A stretch of 64,000 nt of DNA. Source: Lepidostoma basale. Lineage: Eukaryota > Arthropoda > Insecta > Trichoptera > Lepidostomatidae. The stretch lies in the NCBI GenBank assembly GCA_022606425.2, contig JAHDVF020000438.1:51001-115000 (forward strand), written 5' to 3'. Positions 2,836-44,050 of this stretch are shown piece after piece. Made by a program: the position numbers and the translations under genes. The notes beneath the pieces were generated by a model. It was given only the letters and a program-made list of their open reading frames with translations, searched no databases and had not been told where the DNA came from. Position 1 is the stretch's first letter. Each line of letters begins with the position of its first letter.

Positions 2836-3125
2836 TTTCGCACGCTTAATAGAACACTGGCTTAACTCAAAATAGCAAGTTTTGCTCAATCTGACACGAG
2901 TCGGTGTTTTAACAAAAACAGTCGAAAAACACATACGAATTGTGTATGTTGTGAACGATTATCGTACGTACGAATGGATAGCATTGGCATTGTGAAAAAT
3001 AGATGGATAGCGTTAACACAAGCCTCTGTCTAATATTAACTCAATTATGACCTAAACCATAATCGGTCAGTTTACTATTAAGCGTGCGATTTGAAGATGG
3101 AGTTATCTCCGAAACATGTCGTGTT
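2836..3125 (+). repeat. Inverted-repeat element with hammerhead-like motif
   Basis: CGCACGCTTAATAG at 2836 is repeated in reverse complement as CTATTAAGCGTGCG near 3076, just before the ribozyme-like motif. The interior is non-coding and AT-rich. The boundaries are approximate. Confidence 0.45.
3091..3121 (+). ncRNA. Hammerhead-like ribozyme motif (TGAAGA/GGAG-CTCC)
   Basis: The motif reads UUGAAGA, one unpaired U, stem II GGAG/CUCC with loop UUAU, then GAAAC and AUGUC. It matches the hammerhead core except that C3 is U, with one extra nucleotide before stem II. Stem III would be the self-complementary ACAUGU. Stem I is not convincing, so this copy is probably decayed. Confidence 0.45.
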
Positions 3126-3172
3126 TTTTTTTAATATTTTGTGGATTAAACAAAGTTATTTTCAATTTCTAC

Positions 3173-19009: not shown

Positions 19010-19505
19010 ATATATTTTTTTTACATACTACACTTTGTATACAACACTCACTTTTTAAACAAATTAAAATTAAATATCAAACATGTTTCAGTAACCAAGC
19101 CCTTTCTCAGTGATGTTATATAGATATTTAAAATATTATAAAATATCTTCTATATACGCCATACATACTTTGTGTTGTTATGATGCTTTATTTCTCTTTT
19201 TATTTTTTATATACTTTGTATATACAACAATTATATATTTATATTATAAATGTTGTATATACAAAGTATATAAAAAAGAAAAAGAGAAATATTTTAAAAT
19301 TGTTTACAAATATGGTCAGTTTTTTTGTGAAAAAAGTGTTGTGAACATACAATTTTTTTTTAAAGTTACTATTATAATATCACTTTGGAAGGGCTGGGTA
19401 GTCCAAAACATGTTTGATATATAATTTTAATTTGTTTAAAAAGTTAGTGTTGTACACAAAGTATATAAAAAAAGGAAAATATTAAACATCTACAACACAA
19501 ATTAT
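19010..19505. repeat. ACATGT-type ribozyme foldback repeat (copy 1, decayed)
   Basis: The left part contains TTTGTATACAACACTCACTT, ATATCAAACATGTTTCAGTA and CTTTCTCAGTGATG; the right part has the reverse complement (GGCTGGGTAGTCCAAAACAT, GTGTTGTACACAAAGTATAT). Ribozyme boxes in both arms are mutated: CTGAGAA on the left, and CTTTGGA with CAAAA on the right. A second, nearly perfect hairpin lies between them at 19190-19290. Confidence 0.7.
19190..19290. repeat. Near-perfect ~39-bp-arm palindrome
   Basis: Arms at 19190-19228 (starting ATTTCTCTTTTTATTTTTTA) and 19251-19290 are reverse complements with one mismatch, around a 22-base AT loop. It matches the outer end of the foldback family, suggesting two element ends joined head-to-head. 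Confidence 0.75.
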
Positions 19506-19514
19506 GGCGAACAC

Positions 19515-20085
19515 AGAAGAGATAGATTAATTTTTTTTTTAATTAAATAGATTTATTGTTTGTTGAACAATGATTTTTTTATAAATAAGCACTGTTCTTT
19601 CCACCTTTGAAAATGGGAAAAAAGTGTTTTAATTCATGAAATTCCAGTGTTACCGCCATAGATTTTTGAAAAATTAATGAAAACGTCCACTTTCAAGAAG
19701 TTTTATTATATTTTATCGGAATGATGGCATTATCAAATTAAGGCGAGACATGCCTTTTATTTATTCTTCTTTTTTGTGTATCCGAGAATCTGTTTACTGC
19801 ACAGAGGTCTCCTGGGATACCGAATTCTAATAATTTCGCCATTTCTTGGATGATCTTCCGGGTTGGCGGCTACCCGTTGGCATGTTATTTGCTACGACAC
19901 GTGGAAGTCTATTGGTGTTTGTTATTTCCACGTTGTCGGGGCTTAATTGTATCCTTTTCCCCTTCCTTTCATTCTTCATATAAGAATATAAAATAATAAA
20001 ATTCTACAAAACAGATGTTTTGAATAATATTTCAATTAATAATAATAAGAGAGATGATTAATGTTTTATTACTTATGACATTTCG
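19515..20085. other. Non-coding sequence with a repeat fragment
   Basis: 19670-19760 is a decayed AAAACGTC hairpin repeat; the rest is unassigned. Confidence 0.4.
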
Positions 20086-21190: not shown

Positions 21191-21224
21191 TAAGTTATTA
21201 ATACGAATGAAAACGTTTTTTTTA

Positions 21225-21330
21225 TTATATTTTATATATACTTATGTTATACACCACTCACAATAAATAAAAATTAAATACCAAACACGTTTCGGACTAA
21301 CAAGCCCTTCATCAGTGATGTGGTCAGTTT
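21225..21330 (-). repeat. ACATGT-type ribozyme repeat (single arm)
   Basis: One arm only of the foldback family: CAATAAATAAAAATTAAATA, CCAAACACGTTTCGGACTAA and CAAGCCCTTCATCAGTGATG on the plus strand. Fused to the start of an AAAACG repeat at 21195. Confidence 0.65.
21279..21321 (-). ncRNA. Predicted hammerhead ribozyme with full CUGAUGA box
   Basis: Read on the minus strand: CUGAUGA (21315-21309), unpaired A, stem II GGGCU/AGUCC with loop UGUU (5 bp, one G-U), GAAA, then ACGUGU and U at the cleavage position. Stem I forms about 4 bp between AUCA and UGGU. All core bases are intact. Stem III needs a second copy to pair (ACGUGU self-pairs with a G-U). Activity is untested. Confidence 0.6.
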
Positions 21331-21797
21331 TTACAGATGCGAAAATGGTTTATTTTGGAACGTTTATGCTTTTATAATAACAAATATTATGAATAAATTA
21401 AAATTTTAAAATAATAATTTAAAGTTATTTTTGGGATTCAGGTATTAACTTACAACAAAGGAAATAAATCAAAGATTGGACTTGACGTTAAATTTATTTG
21501 AATATTTATAATATTTTCTTTATTTTTAATTGCTTTTTTAATTTCTAAAATTTCGAGATTGTTCAAAGTTATATTTCTACTAGCTGACCCGACGAACTTC
21601 GTACCGCCTCAGAATCAATAAATGTTGTGTTAACTTATTAGCTAAATTTAATTCACCTTTTTATTGAATTACAATTAATACTTAAAATGAATGTGCAAAT
21701 GTTCATGAAATGTGCAAATGTCAAAATTAAAAATATTAATTACAATGGAATATAATTCACGTGGAAGCCTGCATTAATACTTAAAATGAATTATAAA
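21331..21797. other. AT-rich spacer
   Basis: No feature recognised. A 40-bp stretch around 21680-21720 repeats ATGTGCAAATGT twice. Confidence 0.35.
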
Positions 21798-21856
21798 TTG
21801 TTAATTAAAAACTTTGTTTTATGTATCACAATTGTGTTTTTTATTTTTTCGCGACA
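21798..21856 (+). repeat. Penelope-type terminal repeat fragment
   Basis: TTTGTTTTATGTATCACAATTG followed by a T-rich run and CGCGACA matches 43918-43977, where it continues directly into a hammerhead motif on the minus strand. Here the match stops at CGCGACA and the endonuclease relic begins within 15 bases. Confidence 0.65.
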
Positions 21857-21864
21857 ATATATTC

Positions 21865-22160
21865 AACCAAAGTGGAATCTACCAGATTAATTGTGAGGAT
21901 TGTGATGCCGTGTATATTGGAAAGACGGGTCGATCATTTTGAAGAGGTTATATGAACACAACATTTAATACAAAAACAGAATCATTGTGTGAATTTTGAC
22001 CATCATTTCAATTCCAAAAACACATTTTTTTTGCATATAGCAAACAATTTTAAAAAAATTTGATAAATTAGAAAATTTTGAAATTTTTAAAGCAAAGGCA
22101 CGTGAATTGAATGTTATAAATAACCAAATTCCAGCTTATTCCCCCTTAGTATATATGTAG
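21865..22160 (+). pseudogene. Penelope-like element, GIY-YIG endonuclease C-terminus
   Basis: The plus strand reads SGIYQINCEDCDAVYIGKTG followed by RSF, a stop, RGYMN; then HHFNSKNTFFLHIANNFKK, a frameshift, FDKLENFEIFKAKARELNVI, NNQIPAYSPL and a stop. GIY and VYIG are the GIY-YIG nuclease core, the CxxC just before YIG is typical of Penelope-like elements, and the E-IF-AK...N.QI..SPL ending is their usual C-terminus. One nonsense codon and at least one frameshift kill it. The RT domain is not present. The enzyme normally nicks the genomic target for reverse transcription. Confidence 0.8.
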
Positions 22161-22164
22161 TACA

Positions 22165-22400: not shown

Positions 22401-22401
22401 A

Positions 22402-23170: not shown

Positions 23171-23214
23171 CGTTAAAACAATTAAATAGCAGACAACATA
23201 ATTTTGAATAAGTG

Positions 23215-23345
23215 TGATCCATCAATGAACTCCGTTTTCATCATTAGCATCATCATATTCATCATCTGAAGAGTTTGATGATTCAGTGTCCCTATCAATT
23301 GAAAAAATAAATTCCTCGTCTTCATCTAGCCAAATATTTCGTTTA
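23215..23345 (-). pseudogene. Acidic open fragment of unknown origin
   Basis: The minus strand encodes RVLNKRNIWLDEDEEFIFSI followed by DRDTESSNSSDDEYDDANDE and a stop. Acidic serine/aspartate-rich stretches like this occur near the N-termini of piggyBac transposases and in many nuclear proteins. It is too short to assign, and it may be part of an exon or chance. Confidence 0.25.
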
Positions 23346-24019: not shown

Positions 24020-24195
24020 TAAATTAATGATCTATTAAATTAATGATCGAACTAAAAAGCACAGATGAAGGGCTTTTTAGTCCGAAACATGTTTGGTATT
24101 AAATTTTTATTTATTTAATAAAGTGGGTGTTGTATAATAAGTATATAAAAAAAGAAACATTAAACATCTACAACACAAAGTTATGGCGAATATAG
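24020..24195 (+). repeat. ACATGT-type ribozyme repeat (single arm)
   Basis: Contains GATGAAGGGCTTTTTAGTCC, GAAACATGTTTGGTATTAAA, GTGGGTGTTGTATAATAAGT and the family end CATCTACAACACAAAGTTAT, GGCGAATATAGAAGAAA. Confidence 0.65.
24057..24098 (+). ncRNA. Hammerhead-like motif, damaged core
   Basis: The box is CAGAUGA (U4 changed to A), followed by unpaired A, stem II GGGCU/AGUCC, GAAAC and AUGUU. The U4 change should abolish activity. Confidence 0.45.
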
Positions 24196-24203
24196 AAGAA
24201 AAT

Positions 24204-24305
24204 TACGAATGAACACGTCTGTTTTCTAAAAGTTTCATTATAATAATATGGTGGAGACCAGAAGATGGCATTGAGCTGTCGAAACCCGTCAAAGACACAA
24301 ACATC
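24204..24305 (+). repeat. AAAACGTCTG repeat start joined to a different ribozyme-like unit
   Basis: 24204-24240 is the AATGAACACGTCTG repeat start. It is followed by GGAGACCAGAAGATGGCATT, GAGCTGTCGAAACCCGTC, a different hairpin-GAAAC unit. At 24257-24295 the core reads CAGAAGA, U, GGCA/UGUC, GAAAC, CCGUC: U4 is A and stem III is imperfect. Confidence 0.45.
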
Positions 24306-24358
24306 AGTGGATTTTAACTAATACATCTTAAAAAGTTTTTTTACAAAAAAAAATTGCA

Positions 24359-24530
24359 TCATAATAAAACTTCTACAAAATAGACGATTTCATTCGTATA
24401 ATTATACAATAAAATGTTTAACATCCTTTGTTCAAAGAACAATAAATAAATCAAATAAGTTATATTTACACCTGAGATGGAGGAAGTTACCTCCGAAACA
24501 TGACAAAAACATGTATGTTTTTGTTTAATA
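24359..24530. repeat. AAAACGTCTG repeat plus GGAGG/CCTCC ribozyme-like unit
   Basis: 24359-24450 is a reversed AAAACGTC repeat end. At 24471-24505 CTGAGAT, stem GGAGG/CCTCC, GAAACATG occurs; the core GAU replaces NGA, so it is degenerate. The unit ends AATAAATAAAGTC at the following SINE. Confidence 0.45.
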
Positions 24531-24539
24531 AATAAAGTC

Positions 24540-24775
24540 GACCTTCGTGGCAGACTGGTAGGAGCTCTGACTTCCATACCGAAGGTCCCGGGTTCGATCT
24601 CCGGCGAAGGCAGGTGATTGTCACACTATCTTTGATCTGGTGTAGAATTCACGTGACAATAAAATGGCGATGGATTGGCTACCTATCACATGTCATGAGA
24701 ATCATCAATATAATAGCTAAAAATAATGGGTATACAGTAATTGGGTTCAAACGACCTGTTGTATACTGTTGTATA
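24540..24775 (+). mobile_element. tRNA-headed SINE (copy 2, first of a tandem pair)
   Basis: Head GACCTTCGTGGCAGACTGGT, B box GGTTCGATCTCC, body TAAAATGGCGATGGATTGGC, end GGGTTCAAACGACCTGTTGT. It is directly followed by copy 3 in the same orientation, only ~9 bases away. Confidence 0.8.
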
Positions 24776-24784
24776 CACGAAGAC

Positions 24785-25000
24785 GACCTTCGTGGCAGAG
24801 TGGTAAGAGCTCTGACTTCCATATAGAAGGTCCCGGGTTCGATTCCCGGCGATGGTAGTGTGATTGTCACACTGTCTTTGGTCTGGTGTAGAATTCACTT
24901 GACAATAAAATGGCGATAGATTGGCTACCTATCACATGTCACGTGATTCAATATAATAGCTATAAAAAATAATTGTGTACAGTAATTGGGTTCAAACGAC
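24785..25000 (+). mobile_element. tRNA-headed SINE (copy 3)
   Basis: The cleanest head of the family: CTTCGTGGCAGAGTGGTAAG and GGTCCCGGGTTCGATTCCCG. It is truncated at the 3' end, just after TTCAAACGAC, shortly before the GACCTGTTGT end. The two tandem copies differ at many sites, so they are separate insertions or an old duplication. Confidence 0.8.
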
Positions 25001-25839
25001 GTGGATAATGCAGTGTTAAAAATAATCCTACGAAATCAACAACGATTTTAATCATCACAAATATTATAGAAAGTATGCAAACAAAATGATACCGTGAAGT
25101 GGTTTATCTCAACACTTTGATTCACATTATTTACTGAAAAATATTTAAACAGCAGCGGCAAACAAATTCTGCAAGACGTCGAGTCGTTTGTCGGGTTACC
25201 ATGTTTATATAATAAAAGCGGCTGACTGTACGAAGTCCGTAACACAAATTAATAAAGCGGGTATATTAGGATAAATGTATGCAGAGCGAGTTGCTGTGGC
25301 CCGAAGCCGGCGCGGTCTGTGGACCGTTACTCCGCTTGTTTAGTCTATGACCTCTCTCGTCGGGAAGGGTGCGTAATAAAACAGGGATCTTGCAATTATG
25401 ATAAAACGTGCTGCGGAACACGGCGAAGTGTTTTCATAATAAATTTTAATAAAAAAATTAAGACCGTAAAACGTCAGAATGTCTCCATAAAAAACGACAA
25501 GATGTCGCCAAATCCCGCGGCGTTACCGAGGTACTTAAGATCTTTCGTGTAAAATGCCAATTTAATTCTTCGTTCGTCTAACAATTTGCGTTGTGTTTTT
25601 TTTTAAATATTAACCGTCGCGTTGCCATGTGGTCAATTGAGTTTCCACTGCCAATTTAAAGTTGATTTTCTTAAAACCTATGGACCCTAATATTATAAAA
25701 AAATTGTAATCCTCCATTGAAGTGTTCTCAATATTTCGTAATAAAAAAAAAAGCAAAAAATTACTTCCTTCATCCCAAAAAATATATTTTCTAAGACTGC
25801 CCTCACCTTCATTCGTGTTAAGGTAGAATTTGTTTTGCT
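25001..25839. other. Non-coding sequence
   Basis: 25260-25400 is GC-richer than its surroundings. An open frame at 25319-25552 has no recognised motif. Confidence 0.35.
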
Positions 25840-26095
25840 AATATTTACAACTTTATCAAAAGTGACAAATACTTACTCGCTGTTTTGAACGTATTATAAA
25901 TTATATGTTTGGCCTTTTCTCATAGGTACGTAATAATACCGACTGTGGACGGAAACGCAGCACGCAACTTAATAATATCAGAACTGTGAAAATATTAACA
26001 CTTTACCAAAAGGGACAAATATTAATACGTACTCGTTGTCTTGAACGTACTATACATTTTGCCTGGGTGCCTTTATCATACGTAAAATTATAGCG
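25840..26095. repeat. Imperfect tandem duplication, ~150-bp period
   Basis: ACTTTATCAAAAGTGACAAAT, TACTCGCTGTTTTGAACGTA, TCTCATAGGTACGTAATAAT at 25850 recurs as ACTTTACCAAAAGGGACAAA and TACTCGTTGTCTTGAACGTA at 26000. Function unknown. Confidence 0.6.
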
Positions 26096-26389
26096 CCACG
26101 GCCGCGGCGCGGCGCGGCGGGGCGAGATATGTTTTTCAAATAATCCATGTATGTTATAGATATCGATCTATTCCTAATGAAATTCCCTACAAGATGACAT
26201 AAATTAAATTTTGATTCATCGAGTCATATGCTTGATATTTAGATAAAGTTAGCGGTAAACTGAATTGACCACATGGGAGCGAGCGTTTTGTTTTGAACAC
26301 GGTACGTTAAGGGTTAAACACTGCATGCTTTTCGGATATATGTTACCTACATCGTTGGGAGAATGATGAAAACTTACAAAAGTTATTTC

Positions 26390-27020
26390 AATTATTTTAT
26401 TGATGAGAGAATGGAGAATGGATGAGGGAATGGAGAAGGATACTAAAAGAAGGGTTTGGGCAGGCAACATAGTAAGTGGCGCACTTAAATTTGTCATCGC
26501 AAACAAAAGCTTATCCTAAAAAGCTAATATGAAAGTGCACAATGTTGTTCTCGTGCCGACCCTTATGTATGGAAATGAAGCATAGAACTGGCAAAAGAAG
26601 GATGAAAGTAGAATAAATGTAGTAGAAATGAAATCTCTAAAACGAATATGCGGAAAATCTGTATATGATGGAGTGTCAAATGCAAATATAAGAAGTGAAT
26701 GCGGTGCGAATGAAAGCGTTATGAATAAAATAATAAAAAGGTCGTTAAGTTGGTTTGAACACAAGGAAAGAATGAGTAAATACATAATGGTGAAGAAGGT
26801 ATATCTAAACGACGTGAACAGAGCTAGAGGCCGAGGAAAACGTGGCACGATCAAATCAATCTAATATTAAATGTCGGCCACGTGAATAGTTGGAGAAATC
26901 TATGTGCGTGCGTGACACGAGATATGAATATAGACGAATCGAGAGAAGTATGTCAGGACAGAACAGTGTAGCGGTCCGTTCTTTCTGCCTACCTCTCCTT
27001 GGAGACGCGGCTTTGATAAA
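26390..27020 (+). pseudogene. Family A LINE, longer 3' copy (partner of 20090-20680)
   Basis: Readable blocks are NIRSECGANESVMNKIIKRS, LSWFEHKERMSKYIMVKKVY and ARGRGKRGT (deletion within GRPRKTWHDQ). A terminal block without the TTAG tail then continues into ~95 bases also present after the 20090 copy. Several stops and frameshifts. Confidence 0.75.
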
Positions 27021-27119
27021 TAGTTGTTTAAAATATTTTTTCATAAAGTTAACGACGTAAAACAAAAGTAAATTATCTTCATAAGTAAAGAACTAGGGTT
27101 AAGCATCAATAATATATAC

Positions 27120-27500
27120 TCTGTGTATGATAGAGTGTCGAATGAAAATATAAGAAGTGAATGCGGTGCGAATGATGGTGTTATGAACAAAATAATAAAA
27201 GGATCATAAAGATGGTTTGGTAATATGGAAAGAATGAATGAAGAAAGAATGGTAAAAAAATTATATGTTAATGATGTAAATGGAACCAGAAATAGAGGAA
27301 GACCGAGGAAAACGTGGCACGATCAAATAAATCAAATATTGAATGTCGGCCATGTGAGGAGTCAGAAAAATCGACGCGCGTGCAATACACGATGTATGAA
27401 TGTTGAGGAATCAAGAGAAATATGTCAGGAAAGAAAGTGTGGCAGTCCATTCTTTCTGCCAACCCCTTCGGGGAGACGGCGTGATGGTTAGTTAGTTAGT
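27120..27500 (+). pseudogene. Family A LINE, 3' copy with TTAG tail
   Basis: One stop (near 27208) precedes an 88-codon open block: MERMNEERMVKKLYVNDVNG, TRNRGRPRKTWHDQINQILN, VEESREICQERKCGSPFF. Ends GGCGTGATGGTTAGTTAGTTAG. It starts immediately after the 26390 segment. Confidence 0.75.
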
Positions 27501-27536
27501 AAAATTATTTCAACATTATACCAGAATGTATGCTTT

Positions 27537-27577
27537 CTTGAACAATGATGAAAAACTCCATATTAAACCATTAATAT
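27537..27577 (+). repeat. AAAACGTCTG repeat, left half (split by mariner)
   Basis: TGAACAATGATGAAAAACTCC, ATATTAAACCATTAATA is the usual upstream flank of the AAAACGTCTG repeat. Its right half resumes at 28866. Confidence 0.6.
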
Positions 27578-27579
27578 TA

Positions 27580-28864
27580 GGTCCTTACATATGAAATTGG
27601 CGTTTTGCCGTACTGGCAACTTTGATCTCAAATATCTTCTCTTTGGTTAGGAATTCCAAATTTAAATTTATACAGCTATTTACTCAAGTATTTGTGTTTC
27701 GAAAATTATAATTCATTTGTTTTTTCCTCAATTGTTTTTTTTCTTTGCGTCACTCAGTTTACAAAATGGAAAACTTGAAATATCGCGTTATTTACGAGTA
27801 CGAGTTCCACCGTGGCACCAGTGCTGCAGAAACGGCTCGAAGGATTAATGATGTGTATGGCAACGGTGCCGCAAAAGAAAACACAGTGCGTTTTTGGTTC
27901 CAACGTTTTAGTTTTGGAAATTTCGACCTGCAGAACAAGCCCCGTGGACGGCCGGAGACCAAAGTTGATAATGAAGAATTGAAGGCTATTGGGGAAGCGG
28001 ATCCATCGCAAACCACGACCGAGTTAGCTGCAGGCTGCGTTGTTAGTGATAAAACTGTTTTAATCTACTTGAAGCAAATTGGGAAGGTGAAAAAGCTTGA
28101 AAGGTGGGTACCTCACGAATTGAGTGAAGCAAATAAACAAACGCGCGTTGACTGCTGCGTTGCATTACTCAACCGGCACAATAATGAAGGGATTTTGAAT
28201 CGAATCATTACCTGTGATGAAAAGTGGATCCTGTATGATAATTGGAAGCGCTCATTGCAATGGCTGAACCCTGCTGAACCAGCCAAACCATGCTCCAAGC
28301 AAAAATTGACTCCAAAAAAGTTACTTGTGAGCGTTTGGTGGACTAGTGCTGGTGTCGTTTACTACAGCTTTCTTAAATCTGGCCAGACGATTATTGCAGA
28401 TGTCTATTGTCAGCAACTGCAAACCATGATGGAAAAGCTAGCTGGCTGGCTAAACAACCGAGGCTGGTTAATCGCTCTAGGCCACTGCTGCTTCATGATA
28501 ACGCTAGACCACACACTGCACAACAGACGGCTACCAAATTAGAAGAGCTTCAATTTGAATGTCTAAGACATCCACCGTACTCTCCGGACGTTGCCCCAAC
28601 AGATTACTATTTTTTTCGAAACTTGGATAACTTTTGCAAGGGAAAAAATTCAACTCCGATGGGGCAGTCCAAACCGACTTCAAAGATTTTATTGATTCCC
28701 GTCCGAATGTTTTTTTTAGTAAAGGGATCGATGAACTACCTATAAGATGTCAAAAGTGCATAGATAGCAATGGTACATACTTTGATTAAATGAATATATT
28801 ATATTAAAAAAAAATCAACTTTATGTTCCTCCCATACAAAACGCCAATTGCATATGTAAGGACC
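27580..28864 (+). mobile_element. Mariner transposon (structurally complete, 1285 bp)
   Basis: Inverted ends start GGTCCTTACATATG and continue AATTGGCGTTTTG on both sides, with one mismatch over about 29 bases. TA flanks each end (27578-27579, 28865-28866), the mariner target. It lies inside an AAAACGTCTG repeat: joining the flanks restores ATTAATA-TAGTAATGAAAACG. It is therefore younger than that repeat. Confidence 0.9.
27766..28789 (+). pseudogene. Mariner transposase (D,D34D), frameshifted
   Basis: Starting at ATG 27766 (MENLKYRVIYEYEF), an N-terminal paired helix-turn-helix region leads to GRPETK (residues 61-66), the mariner linker WVPHEL (114-119) and the first catalytic Asp in TCDEKW (151). 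A small insertion near 28440 shifts frame. The second Asp is in LLLHDNARPHTA and the third in YSPDVAPTDYYFF, exactly 34 residues apart (D,D34D). A second 1-base shift near 28640 scrambles the C-terminus, whose alternative frame ends at TAA 28787-28789. The enzyme would cut and paste the element at TA; this copy cannot make it. Databases often label such sequences SETMAR-like, but there is no SET domain. Confidence 0.9.
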
Positions 28865-28865
28865 T

Positions 28866-28935
28866 AATAGTAATGAAAACGTCTGTTTGTTGTTCACATG
28901 AAATAAAACTTTTAGAAAACAGACGTTTTAATTAA
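28866..28935. repeat. AAAACGTCTG repeat, right half
   Basis: AATGAAAACGTCTGTTTGTT then AAACTTTTAGAAAACAGACG: an almost empty hairpin, i.e. a solo pair of repeat ends without the ribozyme-like centre. Confidence 0.6.
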
Positions 28936-28939
28936 TATT

Positions 28940-29714
28940 CATTGTATTATACAAGAACCAAATATGCAAATTAAGGCAAATCAGGCACAAAAACATAACA
29001 TGTGCAAAATGGGATGATGTTATATAAATATTTGTATATATGTTTGAAGCTAGAACTACTTATTCATTCTTGGTTGATTGGTTATTCAAATATCATGGTA
29101 GAAGTACATTATGTAAATAAATAATACCAGTTAACATCGTTTCATTTAATTATTATAATAAATAATAATTTTTATTCCACTTGTGTTTTTAGTTCCGACC
29201 GAATTCGGGAGTTGGCTGTCAAAAAAAAAACACAATTTATGTTTTACTTTTACATTACTTATTTACACTGTATCAGACAAACACTTCTTAAATTCTTACA
29301 GCAAGTTTAAAGATGTTGGAAACTGTCTGACCGCGTGATCTTTTTCATTTAAATTTTCATTCAGAATATTAATTTTAAATGTATACTCTTTTACCAACTT
29401 AGGTTAGATTTTTTCAGTTGTTGACTTCAGTCAGACATTCAAGTTCAACTGTTCACACATACATCCGTCCGGTTTCTATACTATATGTATCATAATCAGG
29501 ACGACTATTTGCATTCAAGATTATTCCTGCGATCGCCCTTATGAAGACATGGACGCTATCGACACCGGTCAATATGAAAAGTAACCAGAGATTTAAACTA
29601 AATAAATACGTAGTTCTTAAATATTAACCACAAATTTTATGTGACAATTTATTTATTGTTACAATATACTCGTATAAGACATACAGACATGAATAAATAA
29701 GTAAATAACTAGAT
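28940..29714. other. AT-rich spacer
   Basis: No feature recognised. Confidence 0.35.
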
Positions 29715-29782
29715 GTCTTTTATATATTTGTTTATAAACTTTGTATACAACCCTCACTTTTTTAAACAAATTAAAATTAGAA

Positions 29783-29825
29783 ATCAAACATGTTTCGGAC
29801 TACCCAGCCCTTCCTCAGTGATATT
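29783..29825 (-). ncRNA. Predicted hammerhead ribozyme
   Basis: Minus strand: CUGAGGA (29818-29812), unpaired A, stem II GGGCU/AGUCC with loop GGGU, GAAA, ACAUGU (29793-29788), U at the cleavage position, then UGAU pairing with AUCA as stem I (4 bp, then a mismatch). All core bases are conserved. Confidence 0.6.
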
Positions 29826-29993
29826 ATGTAGATATATAAAATATTTAAAATTGTTTACAAATATGGTCAGCTTTGACAGATGTTATAAAGATTTATTTTA
29901 GAACGTTTATGCTTTTTCCAAAATAAATATTTTTAACATCTGTCAAAACTGACCATATTTGTAAACGATTTCATAATATTTTAATTATCTATA

Positions 29994-30040
29994 TAATATC
30001 ACTGAGAAAGGACTGGGTCGTCCGAAACATGTTTGATATT
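29994..30040 (+). ncRNA. Hammerhead-like motif, mutated G8
   Basis: Stem I is complete (AAUAUCA/UGAUAUU, 7 bp) and stem II GGAC/GUCC and GAAACAUGUU are present, but the box is CUGAGAA, with A for G8. That residue is the catalytic guanine partner in hammerheads, so it is probably dead. Confidence 0.5.
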
Positions 30041-30130
30041 CAATTTTAATTTGTTTAAAAAGTGAGTGTTGTATACAAAGCATATAAAAAAAATATAAAA
30101 CATCTACAACACAAAATATGGCGAACATAG

Positions 30131-30939
30131 AAGAGATGTGTTTTGCTTGATAACAGCTAAGAAAAAATATCGGGGCAAAGTATCAAATACAGATGTATTG
30201 AGTATGTCCTGTAATTACCTTTTTGATTTACAGTGATTTGAAGATTTTTTTATGGATGTATGCGATACTCGTTCATACAAAACGGAAGTATATTTTTACA
30301 ACATCTCACTCAGCGGGAGATGGCGTATGAGCTCTAAGGGTGCCATGCACGAGAAGTTGCACACATACAATTTATCGCGAATTATAATGAAACGCTAATG
30401 GTGTGTTCCGCATAAAAATACACTCGTCTGGCAGGTCTCCAAATGGCGAATAAACGCCAAATACAAAAGGAAAGTGAGATATGCGACTGGAGAGGCGTTC
30501 TTCGAAGACAAGGTACATATTCGGATGTGTTCAAGCATGCATGCTTTAGCAGCTATAACATTTGTTTGTCTAATCATATACTGAAAATTATTCGAGACAT
30601 AATTTGGTCCAAGAGGAACAATTTTACGAGTACATATGGCAGATATAATATAAATATGTACCTAATAAATTACTAAAATTAATACGATTTTTTAAATGCA
30701 GTTAAAGTGTGATTCGCGAAGTATTTCTGAATTGAATAGAATTCGTAACCCTAGCCATACAGATCCACGTGCATTACCAATTAACCCACACGAGAAGATG
30801 ATTTAAGATCATTGTTCAAAATTAATATGAAATTCCATAAATAGGAAATAATTCATGTATTTTTTATTGTTGTATTTCCTTATCTCAACATGAACGATCT
30901 GACAGTTTATATTATACGTTTCTCCAATAATTGAATAAA
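30131..30939. other. Non-coding sequence
   Basis: Open frames around 30395-30676 have no recognised motif; nothing else seen. Confidence 0.35.
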
Positions 30940-31180
30940 ATTTCTAGAAAACATACATTTTCATTCGAATTATTAAAAAAATTCTACATTAAAAAAAATA
31001 AATGAGATTTTTTATTGTTTCTTGAACAATAATGTAAAACCACATAATAAATAATGAATACGAATGAAAACGTATATTTAGGGCATTATCAAATGTTATT
31101 GTTACACTTAATTAATTTACTTTCATGACATGTTTTAGACGAAATTAGACGAAGCATGTCATTCCCATAAAATATAAAAA
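30940..31180. repeat. AAAACGTCTG hairpin repeat, rearranged
   Basis: Reversed start (TTTCTAGAAAACATACATTTTC) at 30940-30975, the flank TTGTTTCTTGAACAATAATG at 31010, and GACATGTTTTAGACGAAATT, AGACGAAGCATGTCATTCCC at 31128-31168. Confidence 0.55.
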
Positions 31181-31204
31181 ATTATAAAACTCGTTTTTAT
31201 TCGA

Positions 31205-31668
31205 TTTCGATAACTTATGTATGGAAGCGAAGCATGGAACTGGCAAAATAAGGATGAAAGTAGAATAAATACAGTGGAAATGAGATCTCTTAGACGAATG
31301 TGTGGACACTCTGTGTATGTGTGTCGAATAACAATATGAGAAGTGAACGCGAGGCAAATGAAAGGATCATAAGAAGGTTTGGACACATGGAAAGAATGAA
31401 TGAATAAAATAATGGTGAAATAAGTATATATATGTTAACGATGTAAATGGAACTAGAAATAGAGGAAGACAGAGAAGAACGTGGCACGATCAAATAAATC
31501 AAATATTGAATGTCGGCCTCGTGAGGAGTCGGAGAAATCAACGCGCGTGCATGACACAATGTATAAAAGTTGAGGAAGCGAGAGAAATATGTCAGGAAAT
31601 AAATGTGTGGCAGTCCATTCTTTCTGCCTACCCCTTCGGGGAGATGGCGTGATGGTTAGCTAGCTCGA
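31205..31668 (+). pseudogene. Family A LINE, 3' copy with tail
   Basis: From LMYGSEAWNWQNKDESRINT through MRSLRRMCGHSV, RFGHMERMNE (frame broken), NGTRNRGRQRRTWHDQINQI and VEEAREICQEINVWQSILSA to the terminal block and GGTTAGCTAGCT. The 5' end joins the AAAACG repeat directly. Confidence 0.75.
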
Positions 31669-32215
31669 TAACAAAATAATGATCACCGGTTATTAATCAT
31701 GATTCTGAAAGAGACAAAGGTAATGGATCTAATTACATTGACCTAAGCACTTACAAATAATATAAAAGATGAGAATACAAGAAAGTAAAGGGAGTTTTGT
31801 TGCATTGTAAAAGGAGTGCATTAAGTTTCAAGTTTAGTCGCTGTAGCGGAGCAGCTGGACGGGGCAAGTGTCGCCGGCGCAGACGACCGAAAATAATCTC
31901 CTATGCTAACGAGGCGCACCATGGTAACAGAATAATGCGATGTACTAAACTGTCTAATTTATGCGGCTATACATTCAAATAGGCTCACGGGATACACGAG
32001 ATTAGCCATAAACAAAACTTAATGATGAACTAAACACACATAAAAATATGGTGAACTGCTACAACACGCATTTATGTACGTACGAGTACATCGAGATCGT
32101 AAATGCATGTAGAAAATGAAATGATACCAACGTGGTTATATTCTATAATATCACTAAAGCGACGCATTCAATAGCATGAACACTTTCGCACTGCGTAATC
32201 ACCCTCGCAAGTCTT
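31669..32215. other. Non-coding sequence
   Basis: No feature recognised. 31800-31900 is locally GC-rich. Confidence 0.35.
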
Positions 32216-32220
32216 AAGTT

Positions 32221-33190
32221 GAGCAAACTACCAACTTAAACTTACAGAAGTCTACTTCGTTAAAAAAATATTTACGATAAAAGTGTAAACAAAATATAAT
32301 ATTATATAACAACCACCAAATCACATTTCCAACAATGTAAGAGGAATAGGCATTAGACCTGAACCTCTGTAAGCCGGAAGATCCAAATCCAAGTCCACTT
32401 AGCAAACTTGTAGAAGTCATCTTAGTTAACAAATATCATTACAATTAATATGTATATCCCCTTGGGAGACGGCGTGATAGTTAATAAATTGGTAACAGAA
32501 TCGGAATCTTGAATGATTTTCGGTAATTTTTTTTGACCAGGATAATTAAAGAATATGAGGAATACGTTTTTTATTTATTTTATAAAGTGTACATTCAATA
32601 TATTATAGTTTATATACATTTTTATTGAAAAATATTAAATAGTAACAAAGTTATCAGCAGTGCTGTAGATTAATTCTGGTCGCATCGATTTTTCACAGAT
32701 TATCTGAAGAAAAAAAAATCAAAGTTCATCATAATCTGTATGAATCGCGTTGTACGTAGCGGATTTTTATTTTGATTTTTAACAAAATGGCGACCGATTG
32801 AAAAATTTCCTAATTTTTTTGGATTCAAGCAGTATTCAAAAATACTTAAAATCAAAATGTACAAAATCGGTTAGGCTAAACGATAGCTATTGCAAAGACG
32901 AATAAAACAAATATAACAACCGCCAAATCACATTTCCAACAATGTAAGAGGAATATCCATTAGAGCTGAACCTGTGTAAGCCAGAAGATAAAAGCCCAAG
33001 TCCAAGTTTTAGATGCACTAAGCAAACTTGCAGAAGTCATCATCGTTAAAAAATAATATAGGTACAATAAAAGTGAAAACATGATATAAGAACCACTGAA
33101 TCATATTTCCAACAATGCAAGAGGTATAGCTATTAGAGCTGAACCTCTGTAATACAGAAGATTCAAATCCAAGTGTAAGATACGCTTAGC
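32221..33190. repeat. Tandem ~170-bp repeat, three units, interrupted
   Basis: CAAATCACATTTCCAACAATG, TAAGAGGAATA, TTAGA.CTGAACCT.TGTAAG and GCAAACTTG.AGAAGTCATC recur in order at 32307, 32930 and 33100. Spacing between the first AGAAGTC words is ~171 bp; the second unit is split by ~450 bp of foreign sequence (32437-32900). The insert includes a scrap of the family A 3' end (CCTTGGGAGACGGCGTGATA, 32459-32478). Confidence 0.7.
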
Positions 33191-33840
33191 AAAAAATAAA
33201 AGAATTATTGAAGCATTTTTAGTGTCCCCCAGACAGAAATTCTCTATAATAGAAGAACCAAATTAGAACGAAACTAGATCTAGGTACATTAGACATAAAT
33301 TGGTGCAACGTCATCTTCTAGGAACGGGAGAAAAAATGCAAACGAAACGAAACATTTGTTTTGAGAGGAGAATTCTCGCACGTTCCATTGCAGGGATCGG
33401 ATTACAAGCCAGAAATAAATTTATTACAAAGAACCTCGACTTTATATCGGGGAAGATTTATAACGAGGCCGGCGGGGAAGATGGAATTTAGTCGGGGCTA
33501 TGATATTCGGGTACAATCGCACAAGTGGGTAGGGCAGGCGGGCGGCGCGCCCCACGGATAAATTTAGAGCACATTATAATACGCTTCCTTCTCCGCGCTC
33601 CTGCTACCCGGGCCGATCCGTTAGGGAAGTGACAAACTCGGTTTGGGTCCGTTAGAGAAGGTGTCACGCCGCTTATTACGGCAGCTTTTTCCGGAAACTC
33701 GACTCCACAAACATAAACGTTGGCGGCGTTAAAAGCCATTCTCCTAACTGCTGGACGTAAAACTTTAACACGTGCCATACTTCAAACATTTAAAACACTT
33801 CAAATATCTCGTTATGAAACAACAGACTATACAAAAGTAT
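33191..33840. other. Non-coding; GC-rich 33480-33700
   Basis: A CpG-containing block (GGCAGGCGGGCGGCGCGCCCC, ACCCGGGCCGATCCGTTAGG) stands out in AT-rich surroundings. No convincing coding frame; it could be a promoter or conserved non-coding segment of a gene outside the window. Confidence 0.35.
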
Positions 33841-33901
33841 TTGTCTTTTTCTTTTTTACATAATTTGTATATACAACACTAATTAAAAAAAAATTAAATT
33901 A

Positions 33902-33945
33902 AATATCAGACATGTTTCGGCAACCCGTCCTTCCTCAGTAATATT
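33902..33945 (-). ncRNA. Hammerhead-like motif, stem II damaged
   Basis: CUGAGGA is intact, GAAACAUGUC is intact and stem I is nearly complete (AAUAUUA/UGAUAUU), but stem II reads GGAC/GCC after loss of one base. Activity uncertain. Confidence 0.5.
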
Positions 33946-34003
33946 ATAAAGATACATCGAATGATTATACTGAAATCACTTGATGAAAGTTCATTTTAAA
34001 TAA

Positions 34004-34200
34004 TAATTGAATAAAACGATGTTTTTTTAACTACTTCCACTTTTGTCTTTATTTCAACAGCGACCGGTTTCGCCAGGCTCGCTGGCAAAGACAGACTGAC
34101 AGACCAATCTGTCGATGCCAGCGAGCCTGGCGAAACCAGTCGCTGTCGAAATAAAGACGATAGTGGAAGTTGTTAAAAACCTAGTTTTATTTAATTATTA
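34004..34200. repeat. ACCGGT-type hairpin (two arms)
   Basis: Arms of about 92 bases, TAATTGAATAAAACGATGTT at one end and its near complement AACCTAGTTTTATTTAATTA at the other, with a 9-base centre. Motifs lie at 34057-34100 (minus: core decayed to CUGUCUU, stem GCCAG/CUGGC, GAAACCGGUC) and 34103-34145 (plus: CUGUCGA, GCCAG/CUGGC, GAAACCAGUC). Confidence 0.7.
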
Positions 34201-34316
34201 TATAAAGATACATATTTGAAATATTATCAAATTGCATTATAAAGATACATATTTAAAATATTATACATATTTAAAATATTATACAATTTTATAATATTTT
34301 AAGTATGTATCTTTAT

Positions 34317-34361
34317 AATATCACTGAGGAAGGACCGGTTGTCCGAAACATGTCTGATATT
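34317..34361 (+). ncRNA. Predicted hammerhead ribozyme (best copy)
   Basis: Every element of a type I hammerhead is readable. Stem I is AAUAUCA (34317-34323) with UGAUAUU (34355-34361), 7 bp. The core box is CUGAGGA (34324-34330). Stem II is GGAC/GUCC with loop CGGUU. Then come GAAA (34345-34348), self-complementary ACAUGU (34348-34353) and C34354 as the cleavage nucleotide. The expected cut is between 34354 and 34355. Two departures: one unpaired A (34331) before stem II, and a 3-bp stem III with no loop, which would require two RNA copies to pair. Penelope-like elements are known to carry hammerheads with minimal stem III. Activity is predicted, not shown. Confidence 0.7.
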
Positions 34362-34489
34362 TAATTTTATTTTTTTTAAAGTTAGCGAGGTATACTCGTA
34401 TACAAAGTATATAAAAAAGAAAAAGACAAATAAAACATCTACAACACAAATTACGGCGAACATAGAAGAAATATTATATTCAAACAAAC

Positions 34490-34690
34490 CTGTTTATTTA
34501 TTGTTTATCGACTAATGATGTAAAACTCCATATTAATTTTATTAAAAAAGTCAAATTGTGTCAAAGTTTACTTTTATAATATTTGATAGCAATGCAATGT
34601 TTCGCTTTGTCCATTTGATAATGACCTAACAAATAAAAACATGTCAATCCCATGATATACAATGAAACTTTTGAAAACTGACGTTTTAAA
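34490..34690. repeat. AAAACGTCTG hairpin repeat, decayed
   Basis: Flank words ATGATGTAAAACTCCATATTAA, the arm words TGTTTCGCTTTGTCCATTTG, AAAAACATGTCAATCCCATG, and the end GAAACTTTTGAAAACTGACG. Confidence 0.5.
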
Positions 34691-34699
34691 TATTATTAA

Positions 34700-35300
34700 A
34701 CCTCTATGAAAAGTCAGCATATGCAAAATGTTTTTTTCAACACTAAGATAAATATGGTATATGTAAAATAGAAGATTAACAGTCCTTCGCCTATTTTCAT
34801 AAATACCAAACGACAGTTTATGATAAATGAATAGAAAAAAACGTGCAAACGAAACCCACGTGGATTGTACTAACACTTTATGCAAATGAATGCATTATGT
34901 GCCAGACAGACCACCCACAACATAAATTCATACGGGCAAGCACAGAAAAAGAATAATTAAACGCAATGTACTTCCATTCATTAGCCAAACTGTAATATTA
35001 GGTAGCCCGTACATACTCCAGTGACCAAATACGCTCTCTACCTGCGACCACGTTTGGTAAAGAACCGGTTTTGAATCGTGTTGTTTCAATTGAACATGCA
35101 CTTTCTCAATAGTCTATTATAATAACAATGCAATTTTAAATGTTGCAGTTGTAAAACAAGATAATCATGCCAAGTGTCACGTTGTCCTCGTTAATAATTA
35201 ATGATAAAATAATCTGAACAGTGTAGTCTACGTTTCTAAGAAATCAAATTAAAATTTGTAGGAGTTTTACACATGGAGTTTACCTTTCGCTTAACCCTTA
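34700..35300. other. Non-coding sequence
   Basis: No feature recognised; the open frame 34574-34885 overlaps the previous repeat and has no motif. Confidence 0.35.
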
Positions 35301-35317
35301 CCACTCCTTTGTCGAAT

Positions 35318-35370
35318 GCCAGCCGACATCGCTATATGTATGCTACAACTCAGTTGTCGGCTGGCGGCCG
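35318..35370. repeat. 11-bp-stem hairpin
   Basis: GCCAGCCGACA and its exact complement TGTCGGCTGGC flank a ~25-base loop, with TTAACCCTTACC just upstream (35292) resembling a piggyBac-like end. GC-rich arms in an AT-rich setting. Confidence 0.55.
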
Positions 35371-35554
35371 ACAAGATAAAGACATTTGGGGGCCATTAAA
35401 AACAATGAGGATATTATAAATAACCAGGTTAATTTGACTTCTAGTCCGATATTAGATTTATTCCCCCTGTCACATAATGTTAACAAACACAATTACTATC
35501 CGGTTAATTCAACTTTCACCCTCTCCCCCCACCACTTTTCCATTCGTTATAGAG

Positions 35555-35660
35555 TATATAAGTAATAGCTCCGCGTCATTTAATTGTTAAAATTTCATCA
35601 ATTATACACAGAGCAAGAGAAGCCTGTTTTCCCAAAACATGTCATGTCTGTATACGATGT
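35555..35660 (+). repeat. TATA-like box plus degenerate ribozyme-like unit
   Basis: GAGTATATAAGTAATAGCTC resembles a TATA box with initiator spacing. About 60 bases later AGAGAAGCC..CCAAAACATGTC has the hairpin-AAAC-ACATGTC order of the ribozyme repeats with GAAA changed to AAAA. It may be a Penelope-type terminal repeat with promoter; this is inference. Confidence 0.35.
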
Positions 35661-36069
35661 AAATAAGTGTTGTGATAATACAAAGTTATCAACAAGTTGT
35701 TCTTATATAATATTATTATTAATATAATAATTTATAGACTGAACATAAGCTTCATTGGTTTAAGTAATTACCTAATATAGAAGATAAAGTAAAAAATGTA
35801 TTCAGTGTTACCAAACGTATATTATGCTTGTTGTTATCTACACAGTAGAGACAAGTCAAGTTATCGTTCAATCTAAAGGGAACCATCGTATTTTTCTGTG
35901 ATGAATATTTGAAGAGACAAGATACCGGACGCAACGGGCCACGCACAAATCTAACAACATTTTCATCTCTACTGACCACTTTACTAGATCCCGTAATAAA
36001 ACAATATACTCATACAACTTAAAACTTTATTGAAATTTCTTGGTAGAAGTTTATTGAAAATAACGGAAA
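35661..36069. other. Non-coding spacer
   Basis: No feature recognised. Confidence 0.35.
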
Positions 36070-36220
36070 TAATTAATACTAATGAAAAAGCTGTTTTCCG
36101 GGAGTTTTATTATATTGATTGGGAGTAAAACATTTCGCCTTGCCTAGGCATTATTAAACGTTTTAAATAATAAAGACATTTGATAACGATTTACCAAGCC
36201 GAAACATGTCATTCCAATGA
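36070..36220. repeat. AAAACGTCTG hairpin repeat
   Basis: Start AATGAAAAAGCTGTTTTCCG, arms AACATTTCGCCTTGCCTAGG and ACCAAGCCGAAACATGTCAT. Runs directly into family F at 36235. Confidence 0.6.
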
Positions 36221-36234
36221 AATATTGTGTTTAC

Positions 36235-36545
36235 AACATTTGAATGTATACTCGTACAAATACTTGTAGACGAATACTGGATTTTACCCATTGCGGGTTT
36301 TCAATTCAAGGATTAATTGTATCTCAATAGAGACGAAGATGCAAATTGGAAACAGAATATGGTGATCGAGGTGTTTACAGGACTTATGACCTGTCATTGG
36401 TTGGGTTAAGCGCACGCTTTATGTAATACAACATTCCCCATTCCAACCTTCTTACGACCACCATGTCTGACAAAATTTTGGAAATTGTATATATGTTAAT
36501 ATGTAACACCAAACTTCACATGTTAGTTTCAATCTACACACTAGC
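36235..36545 (+). repeat. Family F repeat (copy 2)
   Basis: ACTCGTACAAATACTTGTAGA, CAATAGAGACGAAGATGCAA, ATGACCTGTCATTGGTTGGG, CATTCCCCATTCC, ends CTACACACTAGC. It lacks the terminal 75-bp module found in the other two copies. Confidence 0.7.
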
Positions 36546-37583
36546 TAAATATTGTGTAGAAAAATTTATAGAAAGCAGACTTTATTATTCGTGTAACTGA
36601 TTAATAATGGAGTTCAACATCATTGTTCAAGAAATAATTCACTAACAAAAATAATTAACCATTAAATAGCTAAATGAATTAGAAAATAACGCATTGAACT
36701 CAATAGTAAATATAGTACTTATCATTTACAATGGGTATATAATTAGCTTTTTTATGTAATTCCCACACATTTAGAATTATTAATTTATTAAGATGTTTAA
36801 AATCAGTCACCGACCTGCAGGAATCGCCCCCATATTCTTTCAAAAATAATTATTATTCAAGATATTTTTGGTTCATCAATGGATTTTACGAAGTGAATCG
36901 ACAATATTTTTAAAATTCTATTCAATTCCATTTTTGTTTTAACGTAAATCATTAATATAATTTAAATGTATGTACATCTTCATTATGCACAATGTTCATT
37001 ATTATTAAGCATTTACCGATCATTAAAATGGCGAATCATTAAATAAAGTGCTTTCAAGTCAAAAATCTTTTCTTTGAAATTTCCAAGGCAATCCATACTT
37101 CTAAAGAGCCGAGAGTGATGGTCGCCGGATCATTAATCTGGGGAAAATGTGCCATTCTCGCTGGAACGTGGGATTTTGTTTCGCAAAATGGGGTAAAATA
37201 TTAATACAAGGATATAATTTTAAGCAGGTATTATTAACACTTCATTACTAATAATAATCGACAAAGTTATGTAAGTCTTACAATAAGAGTGAATGTTCCG
37301 TGAAATATGTTCGCATAACCAACGAGTTTATTCTGACCTAAAAACGAGGAAGATTATTGCGATAATAATGTATCAACTTTCAACAAACATTATATATGAA
37401 TATGTAAGCGATAATAAAATTTAAAATCCATTGTATTAAATACGAACCTCCAAGAATACCTGTAATACCAATATTTAAATTCAGAAAATTTTACATAAAT
37501 ATTTGAAGATTATTTTTGTATAGAATCATGTTTACCACCCCTGATCTGTATGTATATAAAAGACTAAGTTTACAATAGTGTCA
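36546..37583. other. AT-rich non-coding sequence
   Basis: 36555-36640 retains the AAAACGTC flank words (GAAAGCAGAC, GGAGTTCAACATCATTGTTC). Nothing else recognised. Confidence 0.4.
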
Positions 37584-37690
37584 CCAGTCTGTTGATGCCA
37601 GCTAGCCTGTCGAAACCGGTCGCTGTCTAAATAAAGACAAAAGTGAAAGTAGTTAAAAACATCGTTTTATTTAATTATTATTTCAACATT
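37584..37690 (+). repeat. ACCGGT-type ribozyme repeat, single arm
   Basis: CCAGTCTGTTGATGCCAGCT, AGCCTGTCGAAACCGGTCGC, then ATAAAGACAAAAGTG and ACATCGTTTTATTTAATTAT. At 37584-37626 stem I forms CAGU/GCUG (4 bp), the box is CUGUUGA (A6 is U), stem II is GCCAG with a mutated partner CUGUC, and stem III is ACCGGU. Confidence 0.6.
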
Positions 37691-38284
37691 TATGTATTCT
37701 GATGGTGCCTAAATAATTTTTGGAAATCTCTTTCAGATAGTTGGAACTCGTTAAATATAATAAACGTAATTTATATCTAACCATAATAGAGTCTTATTAT
37801 TGAAACCCAAAGGACAACTATAAAAGCAGTAACAATTTAACGTTTAGAGGCGCTTCAATTTATGAAATCCAAAACGGTGTGTTAACGATTTTGGCCATCT
37901 TAGTAATAAATGCGTAATAACAGATTAATCTCGTTCCTCAATGAACCGAGCAGAACTCGTAAAATCACGCACAAATCAAATCACTGGCACATTTCGCAGA
38001 TTCAGATCTAAATAGATCTAAATCTTGTGAAATTCTATAATTATTTCTGAATTTTCATAACGAACCTTCACCTTTCTTAAATTCGGCGCTCATTTTTCGA
38101 AGTATTTTGTTATTAACGTCAAAACATTCAATAAGGCTGAAGATATGATCTCAAATTAATTAATACCGAAAATGTCAATTTAATTAACTCGACACGTTCT
38201 TAATGAACGGGATAAAGTTGATTCGGATAAGAATAATTAAAAAAAATGTAGAAAAATTTAATAGGTAATTCCTTTTTAAGAAAA
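37691..38284. other. AT-rich spacer
   Basis: No feature recognised. Confidence 0.35.
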
Positions 38285-38555
38285 TCAAATGATTTATTTC
38301 TCTTTTTCTTTTTTATATACCCTTTATATATTATTTACATAGACATGTTTCGGACAAACAGTCCTTCTTCAGTAAAGATACATTTAAAATAAATAAATAA
38401 ATAATGTATCTTTACTGAAGAAGGACTGTTTGTCCGAAACATATCTACGTGATTTTATTTTTTTAATATAAGTGTTGTATATACAAAGTACCCATATAAA
38501 AAATAAAAATAAACCGTCATAACAACACAAAGTATGGCGTATATAGAAGAAAATA
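38285..38555. repeat. ACATGT-type ribozyme foldback repeat
   Basis: Short central loop (38381-38402) between two arms: minus motif 38343-38380 and plus motif 38405-38450. The outer end carries CAACACAAAGTATGGCGTAT, ATAGAAGAAAAT. Confidence 0.7.
38343..38380 (-). ncRNA. Predicted hammerhead core (CUGAAGA)
   Basis: Minus strand: CUGAAGA (38372-38366), unpaired A, stem II GGAC/GUCC, GAAA, ACAUGU, C at the cleavage position. The core is intact, but stem I pairs only 2 bp. The plus-strand twin at 38405-38450 has the same box and stem II but ACAUAU in stem III. Confidence 0.55.
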
Positions 38556-38892
38556 ATCAAATGATTTTACTTATAATCTCACAGTGAAAATTCATATAAA
38601 ATAATAAAATATAAAGCTAAAAACCAAGAATAATTCCTTTACCTTGTGTCAGCGACCATGGAGCAATTAATGCGTTCTGTTAAAAAGTAAATACAGCCAG
38701 CAGCCCAGGATTACTTTGAGTTCATTGAAAAAACATTGTTTAATGCCGTCTCAAAAGTGCTCAGAAATCTAGTTTCATACCAGAAATATAAAATTTAAAT
38801 AAAAAAAATTTTACTTGGTGAACTGTGACTCAGTATCAACAAATAAGTGAAATTAAAAGAGAAAACCTGCAGATTCTGTTCTGCTGAATAAA
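38556..38892. other. AT-rich spacer
   Basis: No feature recognised. Confidence 0.35.
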
Positions 38893-43917: not shown

Positions 43918-44050
43918 CTGTTAAATTAAAAAAACTTTGTTTTATGTATCACAATTGTATTTTTATTTTTCGCGACAGCTGTTTCGTCAACCTATGTTGA
44001 CATCATCAGGAGTTACGATGTAACACAATTGTGATACATAAAACAATTTT
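43918..44050. repeat. Penelope-type terminal repeat with hammerhead
   Basis: TTTGTTTTATGTATCACAATTG on the left and its complement CAATTGTGATACATAAAACA on the right flank the motif. The left half matches 21798-21856 beside the GIY-YIG relic. Confidence 0.65.
43974..44017 (-). ncRNA. Predicted hammerhead core with 6-bp stem II
   Basis: Minus strand: CUGAUGA (44009-44003), unpaired U, stem II GUCAAC/GUUGAC (6 perfect pairs, loop AUAG), GAAA, self-complementary ACAGCUGU, C at the cleavage position (G43974 on plus). This is the strongest stem II and stem III in the window; stem I is weak next to the core (one pair, a mismatch, one pair). Sequence of both stems differs entirely from the copy at 34317, yet pairing is kept. 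Confidence 0.65.

Follow-up and report, generated by a model that had tools for sequence, protein, structure and literature searches.

A hammerhead-type motif in what is very probably a head-to-head copy of a Penelope-like retroelement

The motif at 34317-34361 lies on the plus strand of the window, by which we mean the whole 64,000-nucleotide stretch of DNA that was analysed. As read from the sequence, it begins with the 5′ strand of stem I (AATATCA, 34317-34323) and the core CTGAGGA (34324-34330), followed by a single extra A (34331) between A9 and stem II. The two strands of stem II (GGAC, 34332-34335, and GTCC, 34341-34344) enclose the loop CGGTT (34336-34340). Then come GAA (34345-34347), the self-complementary stem III hexamer ACATGT (ACAUGU in the RNA, 34348-34353), the C located 5′ of the predicted cut (34354) and the 3′ strand of stem I (TGATATT, 34355-34361). 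Stem I has seven perfect pairs and stem II has four. The layout CUGANGA...GAAA...UH is represented by CUGAGGA at 34324-34330, GAAA at 34345-34348, U34353 and C34354, with one extra base at 34331. The initial annotation had listed stem I, CUGAGGA, GGAC/GUCC, GAAA, ACAUGU and the C; all of them are found in the right order and where it had placed them, hence the hammerhead parts are confirmed as real, and its cleavage position between 34354 and 34355 agrees with the cut predicted here. Its part list overlooked the extra A.

The motif is carried by the right arm (34300..34477, plus strand) of an inverted repeat, which we interpret below as a family A copy of a Penelope-like element (PLE). This arm contains the pLTR with the motif and a 3′ tail at about 34433-34477, with ends placed by comparison with other copies. 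The left, inverted arm of the same copy (33838..33957, minus strand), delineated from the inverted repeats I2, I5 and I6 and from the covariance model R1 described below, has no tail, contains a decayed hammerhead (33901-33946) and is 87% identical to the right arm by BLAST. A second, head-to-head PLE copy belonging to family B, with stem III ACCGGU, is nested at 33995..34206 (inverted repeats and R1). Its arms occupy 34024-34098 and 34105-34179, its motifs lie at 34054-34102 (−) and 34101-34149 (+), and motif and flank are as in the arms of the family B locus L030. No coding frame was found in the family A copy around 34317-34361, and TRF found no array with a period of about 300 bp at this locus.

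A transcript of 33830-34480 is predicted to fold as one long hairpin (−289.6 kcal/mol against a mean of −100.9 for 20 shuffles). As read from the predicted bracket notation, stem II would stay in this hairpin, whereas the core, ACAUGU and the greater part of stem I would pair with the antisense arm. The folding energy of the lone motif is no better than that of its shuffles (−7.9 kcal/mol, z −0.06); the predicted stems I and II do form. Full pairing of ACAUGU is possible only with a second copy, and a double hammerhead of two copies (−18.8 kcal/mol) beats two monomers (2 × −7.4) but loses to another dimer fold (−23.7).

The motif belongs to a large set. The pattern CTGANGAN{5,28}GAAAC is matched 8 times in the window, the expectation being 0.42, in line with the earlier argument that so many matched parts exceed chance. 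It had also been stated that the layout recurs in at least eight other places of the window. By homology this holds, since a profile search finds nine other family A copies (19054−, 19372+, 21262−, 24056+, 29761−, 29986+, 33884−, 38335− and 38412+); several of them are, however, without the complete layout. The core is changed at 24062 (CAGATGA), 30002 (CTGAGAA) and 19372 (CTTTGGA), stem II is reduced at 33914 and the palindrome is broken at 38415. Family A pairs are arranged head-to-head at 19037..19524, with decayed cores, and at 29714..30137, with motifs at 29793-29818 (−) and 30002-30027 (+); a pair of family A2 occupies 38289..38552, with motifs at 38348-38372 (−) and 38415-38439 (+). The arm at 24056..24205 (+), with the CAGATGA core, shares the AC-rich tail (BLAST, profile and motif searches). 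Further hammerhead-type motifs of the window come from other families, for example those of family C at 43966..44017 (−), with stem III ACAGCUGU, and of family D at 3083..3128 (+), both of which are also rows of R1.

With no more than one mismatch allowed in the core and four or more pairs required in stem II, 89 hammerhead-like motifs were collected from the window, from 200 kb of a different contig and from the fetched loci, against 8 in the reversed sequences; this total includes loci fetched for their likeness to family A or because they adjoin GIY-YIG matches. By our own grouping, the 89 motifs would fall into about ten families or subfamilies with a common core and differing helices. The 5′/3′ strands of stem I are AATATCA/TGATATT in family A, CAGT/GCTG in B, TACAC/GTGTA in D, TTCTC/GAGAA in E, GCC/GGC in F and CACA/TGTG in G, and stem III is palindromic in differing sequences (ACAUGU, ACCGGU, ACAGCUGU). 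Genome-wide (768.8 Mb, 1,572 contigs), the pattern CTGATGAN{4,20}GAAA has 22,183 + 22,535 matches (44,718), and the reversed pattern 1,674 + 1,597 (3,271).

The differing helices allow the fold to be evaluated by comparison. Stem I was compared in 11 family representatives, some of which are interrelated (A with A2, and the F forms with one another). Of its 55 inner positions 43 are paired; exchanging the partners between families gives 25.6 on average, and none of 20,000 shuffles reaches 43. The 11 come from 14 family strings read by eye, from which A21290, C16 and F2 were dropped as second family members, and the count favours the fold in that F2, pairing at 2 of 5 positions, was replaced by its relative F2b (4 of 5). 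The weak exceptions are A2, with two pairs in a row, and family C, with one. In a 22-row alignment of all families MAFFT shifted the core by one base; therefore, the covariation test and the model R1 use only the 16 rows that belong to families B-E and omit A, F and G. In these rows 80.5% of the cells are paired (60.0% after shuffling; by helix, 94.9% in stem II and 66.3% in stem I), and the covariation reaches 0.614 against 0.248 for shuffled alignments, none of 500 being as high, and at most 0.222 for slid versions. Of the three helices, stems I and II thus covary between families, and stem III is a palindrome whose sequence differs between them.

R1, which was built from the four other families and holds no family A member, gives 34317-34361 a score of 20.9 bits, with a rough E of 0.0013 for the 64 kb. 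The same score is given to 38334-38380 (−), and the inverted partner of our motif receives 16.4 bits (E 0.028); 24464-24512, with 21.6 bits, stands slightly above 34317-34361. Of the ten family A copies in the window, the model reports three at E≤1 and leaves seven unreported. The hammerhead-type fold that had been proposed for 34317-34361 is thus supported, on comparative grounds, by the covariation between families and by a model made without family A.

A match to the Rfam hammerhead models, to which the initial annotation had pointed, was not obtained for the motif: the models of release 15 give none in the window at their gathering thresholds, none at E≤10 in 33800-34500 or 21000-38600, and none in the well-kept family A loci L031-L033. 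We conclude that these models miss the PLE minimal form here, so that annotation with them under-reports the motif. The sole genome locus reported above the Rfam Hammerhead_1 threshold (38.7 bits; 73 of 94,533 candidates scored) is L009 (C844) 1501-1617 (−), which is not of family A; it has the palindromic ACACGTGT adjoining GAAA, as in PLE motifs. The description of the fold as complete therefore holds only in a qualified sense: all parts are there, but the self-complementary hexamer of the loopless stem III cannot be closed by a monomer, the core has an extra nucleotide and Rfam does not report it. Taken together, the earlier interpretation is partly supported.

The proteins associated with the repeat point to PLEs. 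In the family B locus L030, whose arms are 99% identical, a 758-codon stop-to-stop frame has both RVT_1 (E 1.4e-13) and GIY-YIG (E 6.6e-5), so that for family B the reverse transcriptase and the endonuclease are present in one ORF. The left arm overlaps the start of this frame, thus the copy is probably truncated at its 5′ end. Family A has endonuclease remnants beside the motif only. A PLE endonuclease that is 45% identical to L030 (E 3e-8) is encoded at L013 5521-5715, and downstream of it, at 5949, lies an A2-type motif with one core base missing. The DNA of L013 5673-5905, which adjoins this endonuclease, is 89% identical to 21582-21349 (−) of the window. We assign 21262..21582 (−) to the 3′ end of a family A PLE, with the C-terminus of the endonuclease and a 3′ UTR remnant (21582-21349) and then the hammerhead (21290-21315). 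These two decayed copies make up the whole coding link of family A, which counts against the PLE reading. A fragment of another PLE GIY-YIG endonuclease (...GIYQINCEDCDAVYIGKTGR...) is located at 21850..21939 (+), with 53% identity to the L030 frame by tblastn (E 5.6e-4).

Among 20 fetched 3′ flanks of GIY-YIG matches, 8 have family B motifs, 4 have family D motifs (that of L064 decayed), 4 have none, and those of L055 and L065 look like decayed family D; family A is present in none of the 20. In the 12 flanks with B or D motifs, about 125 to 490 nt separate the endonuclease domain from the motif that follows it. The two remaining flanks of the 20 are those of L051 (C102) and L053 (C729), the best and the third-best GIY-YIG matches of the genome; both look like bacterial UvrC, so that contigs of a symbiont or a contaminant may be present in the assembly. 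A search with the PLE protein scored 7,995 candidates and gave 1,343 relatives; the named ones among the 120 listed are from the insects Phthorimaea, Euphydryas, Diabrotica and Schistocerca. The earlier expression "insect repeat" can thus be made more precise as to the repeat, a Penelope-like element, and an insect host is likely from these named relatives.

The arrangement of the arms leads to the same reading. With 34300-34520 as the query, 40 of 2108 genome candidates were scored and 20 loci were fetched from the best of these, so the identity and arm length of these loci reflect selection. All 20 loci have the end of the arm with the tail at query 171-185. A second arm is found in 11; it is full in five (L031-L035), where it ends at query 130-137, and shorter or cut by the fetch in six, including L039, whose arms are direct. 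At the window locus the left arm extends to query 133. By script, target-site duplications were detected in L032 (12 bp) and L033 (9 bp), with 8 bp or less in 30 mismatched pairings; another, of 10 bp, was seen by eye in L031, and none is clear at the window locus, L034 or L035. Among the first 100 listed places of each pattern, neighbours within 1 kb are head-to-head in 18 of 18 cases for family B motifs and in 9 of 10 for CTGATGAN{4,20}GAAA, the tenth being on the same strand. In 19 of these 27 head-to-head pairs the spacing is 10-54 nt, from which it follows that many PLE copies end just upstream of the motif, their 5′ ends being clustered there.

Hence, we suggest that 34317-34361 very probably lies in a solo head-to-head pLTR copy of a Penelope-like retroelement, a known kind of element that abounds in this genome, and that its 45 nt represent the minimal hammerhead of type I which such elements carry. 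Minimal type I hammerheads of PLEs were described by Cervera and De la Pena in 2014 and by Lunse, Weinberg and Breaker in 2017 (cited in PMC7761336). As here, they are of type I, have no closed helix III, reside in pLTRs and occur in thousands of scattered copies, and they were proposed to work as dimers (PMC7761336, PMC6155905); they are described as lacking the tertiary contact between loops I and II of full hammerheads (PMC6155905). PAc, the Poseidon element of Anolis carolinensis, resembles our elements in having an ORF with RT and GIY-YIG, a hammerhead at the pLTR-ORF junction, a start of reverse transcription within an AC-rich stretch and the tail signature. However, its copies are in tandem, whereas those described here are mostly head-to-head remnants (PMC11167929). 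In that work the PLE tail is traced to internal starts of reverse transcription, and cleavage by the PAc hammerhead is seen only with protein. Penelope of Adineta vaga shares with our copies the inverted head-to-head pLTRs, an optional tail on one of them and target duplications of 8-10 bp; a text search gives no occurrence of the word hammerhead in that paper (PMC3846280).

Inverted arms, a locus where no coding frame was found, many copies and, in some, short target duplications are also what a foldback or MITE-type DNA transposon would offer, with the hammerhead-like inverted ends acting as a transposase-binding DNA hairpin. We consider this highly improbable, as the families change their helix sequences together while the core and helices are kept, the motif follows an endonuclease domain in 12 of 20 GIY-YIG flanks at about 125 to 490 nt, and a tail sits on one arm only in the five full pairs, a difference not expected of equal transposon ends. 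Even less credible in our view is a non-LTR retrozyme, that is, a small non-autonomous element whose spread depends on circular RNAs that a canonical type I hammerhead produces. The type I order of parts, the small repeat, its high copy number, the direct arms of L039 and the single same-strand pair would agree with it. Published animal retrozymes, however, consist of tandemly repeated units of about 300 bp (PMC7229834), while neighbours here are head-to-head in 27 of the 28 listed pairs (18/18 and 9/10) and stem III is loopless; no tandem array of that period was found at the locus.

The core nucleotides bear on what the fold does in the living element. Exactly one base lies between A9 and stem II in 86 of 89 sampled motifs, and none in the other 3. 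It is A in 47 motifs and T in 39, never C or G, although the 86 are not independent observations, as copies within families are related. The plus-strand hammerhead of the chrysanthemum chlorotic mottle viroid likewise has one extra nucleotide between A9 and G10.1; it is the ribozyme of a viroid, and no common descent is implied. The extra A10 makes its trans-cleavage moderately slower, U at this position speeds cleavage 3-4 fold, and C or G is harmful (PMC3705267). A and T in 86 of 86 motifs are thus the two bases tolerated in the viroid hammerhead, which suggests that catalysis mattered, and the extra A34331 has a precedent in the viroid A10. The core of families A, C, D and F is mostly of consensus sequence. 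Family B departs from it: its exact 33-base motif has 4,778 genome copies with CUGUCGA (U6) against 16 with the consensus CUGACGA (A6), and, with A6 changed to U, it still has both stems I and II, the stem III palindrome and GAAA. In family E five sampled copies have CCGAUGA or CCGACGA (U4 to C) with otherwise intact helices (sites L013 1162-1248; L021 3094-3121 and 5643-5670; L025 7862-7889).

The 4,778 U6 copies show strong amplification of a PLE family whose core is expected to cleave poorly, which suggests that the amplification of family B did not need canonical cleavage. In some families at least, the fold could now be kept for another use, for instance as a structured signal to the PLE protein or in the dimerisation of the RNA. 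The U6 copies, being of the lineage with the 758-codon L030 frame, the U4 changes of family E and the PAc hammerhead mutants, whose insertion in vitro is unchanged (PMC11167929), are in agreement with this. It is opposed by the mostly consensus core of families A, C, D and F and by an extra base confined to what the viroid tolerates; moreover, A6 variants can keep low activity, A6C in another natural hammerhead cleaving at less than 0.1 per minute (PMC3088659). We regard the non-cleavage use as a tentative, rather unlikely alternative. With the same reserve we put forward its specific form, namely that the PLE hammerhead fold is uncoupled from catalysis here and serves family B as a structured or dimerising RNA signal. 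If so, comparing the families whose core is of consensus sequence (A, C, D and F) with B and E would amount to a natural experiment on the purpose of the ribozyme. The papers named in our literature search, of which this change was not itself a subject, include none on such a PLE core change.

For the minimal PLE hammerhead as such, we propose the following course in a living element. Two tandem pLTR copies would be transcribed together, stems I and II would form within each copy, and the ACAUGU palindromes of the two would pair as a shared stem III. The dimer, perhaps with the help of the PLE protein, would then cut after C34354 (C17) and give unit-length RNA. Reverse transcription would begin inside the element near the tail, often halting just upstream of the motif, and its product would be inserted as an inverted pair. 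The motif, its covarying helices, the link to an endonuclease remnant, the inverted pairs, the tail and some target-site duplications are observed here; cleavage as a dimer, what it is for and where reverse transcription halts are inferred. The copy at 34317-34361 itself is probably a short, inverted, inactive remnant. No function is expected of it, because no coding frame was found, the distance between its core and the antisense of that core is 0.4 kb, and it carries another PLE within it; it is most likely inert, and the inverted partner nearby argues against catalysis.

Minimal PLE hammerheads and their action as dimers are already known, so family A is a further case of them and the core of family B is the odd point. 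The activity and in vivo role of these minimal forms were called a mystery in a 2020 review (PMC7761336). The tens of thousands of pattern matches and the several coexisting PLE families make cleavage and spread comparable between families in a single genome.

Several other features of the window were recorded. Rfam microRNA matches below threshold at inverted pairs (for example, mir-341, mir-2513 and MIR2599) are ascribed to the long hairpins of the inverted arms rather than to homology. At 9446-9566 there is a match to U4 spliceosomal RNA (59.4 bits) with a weak 3′ part. About two tandem 245-bp units with a tRNA-Gly-like sequence occupy 24535-25000, one copy of which is called by both Rfam and ARAGORN, the other being below threshold. 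Finally, two tandem 145-bp copies with 98% matches are located at 53264-53555.
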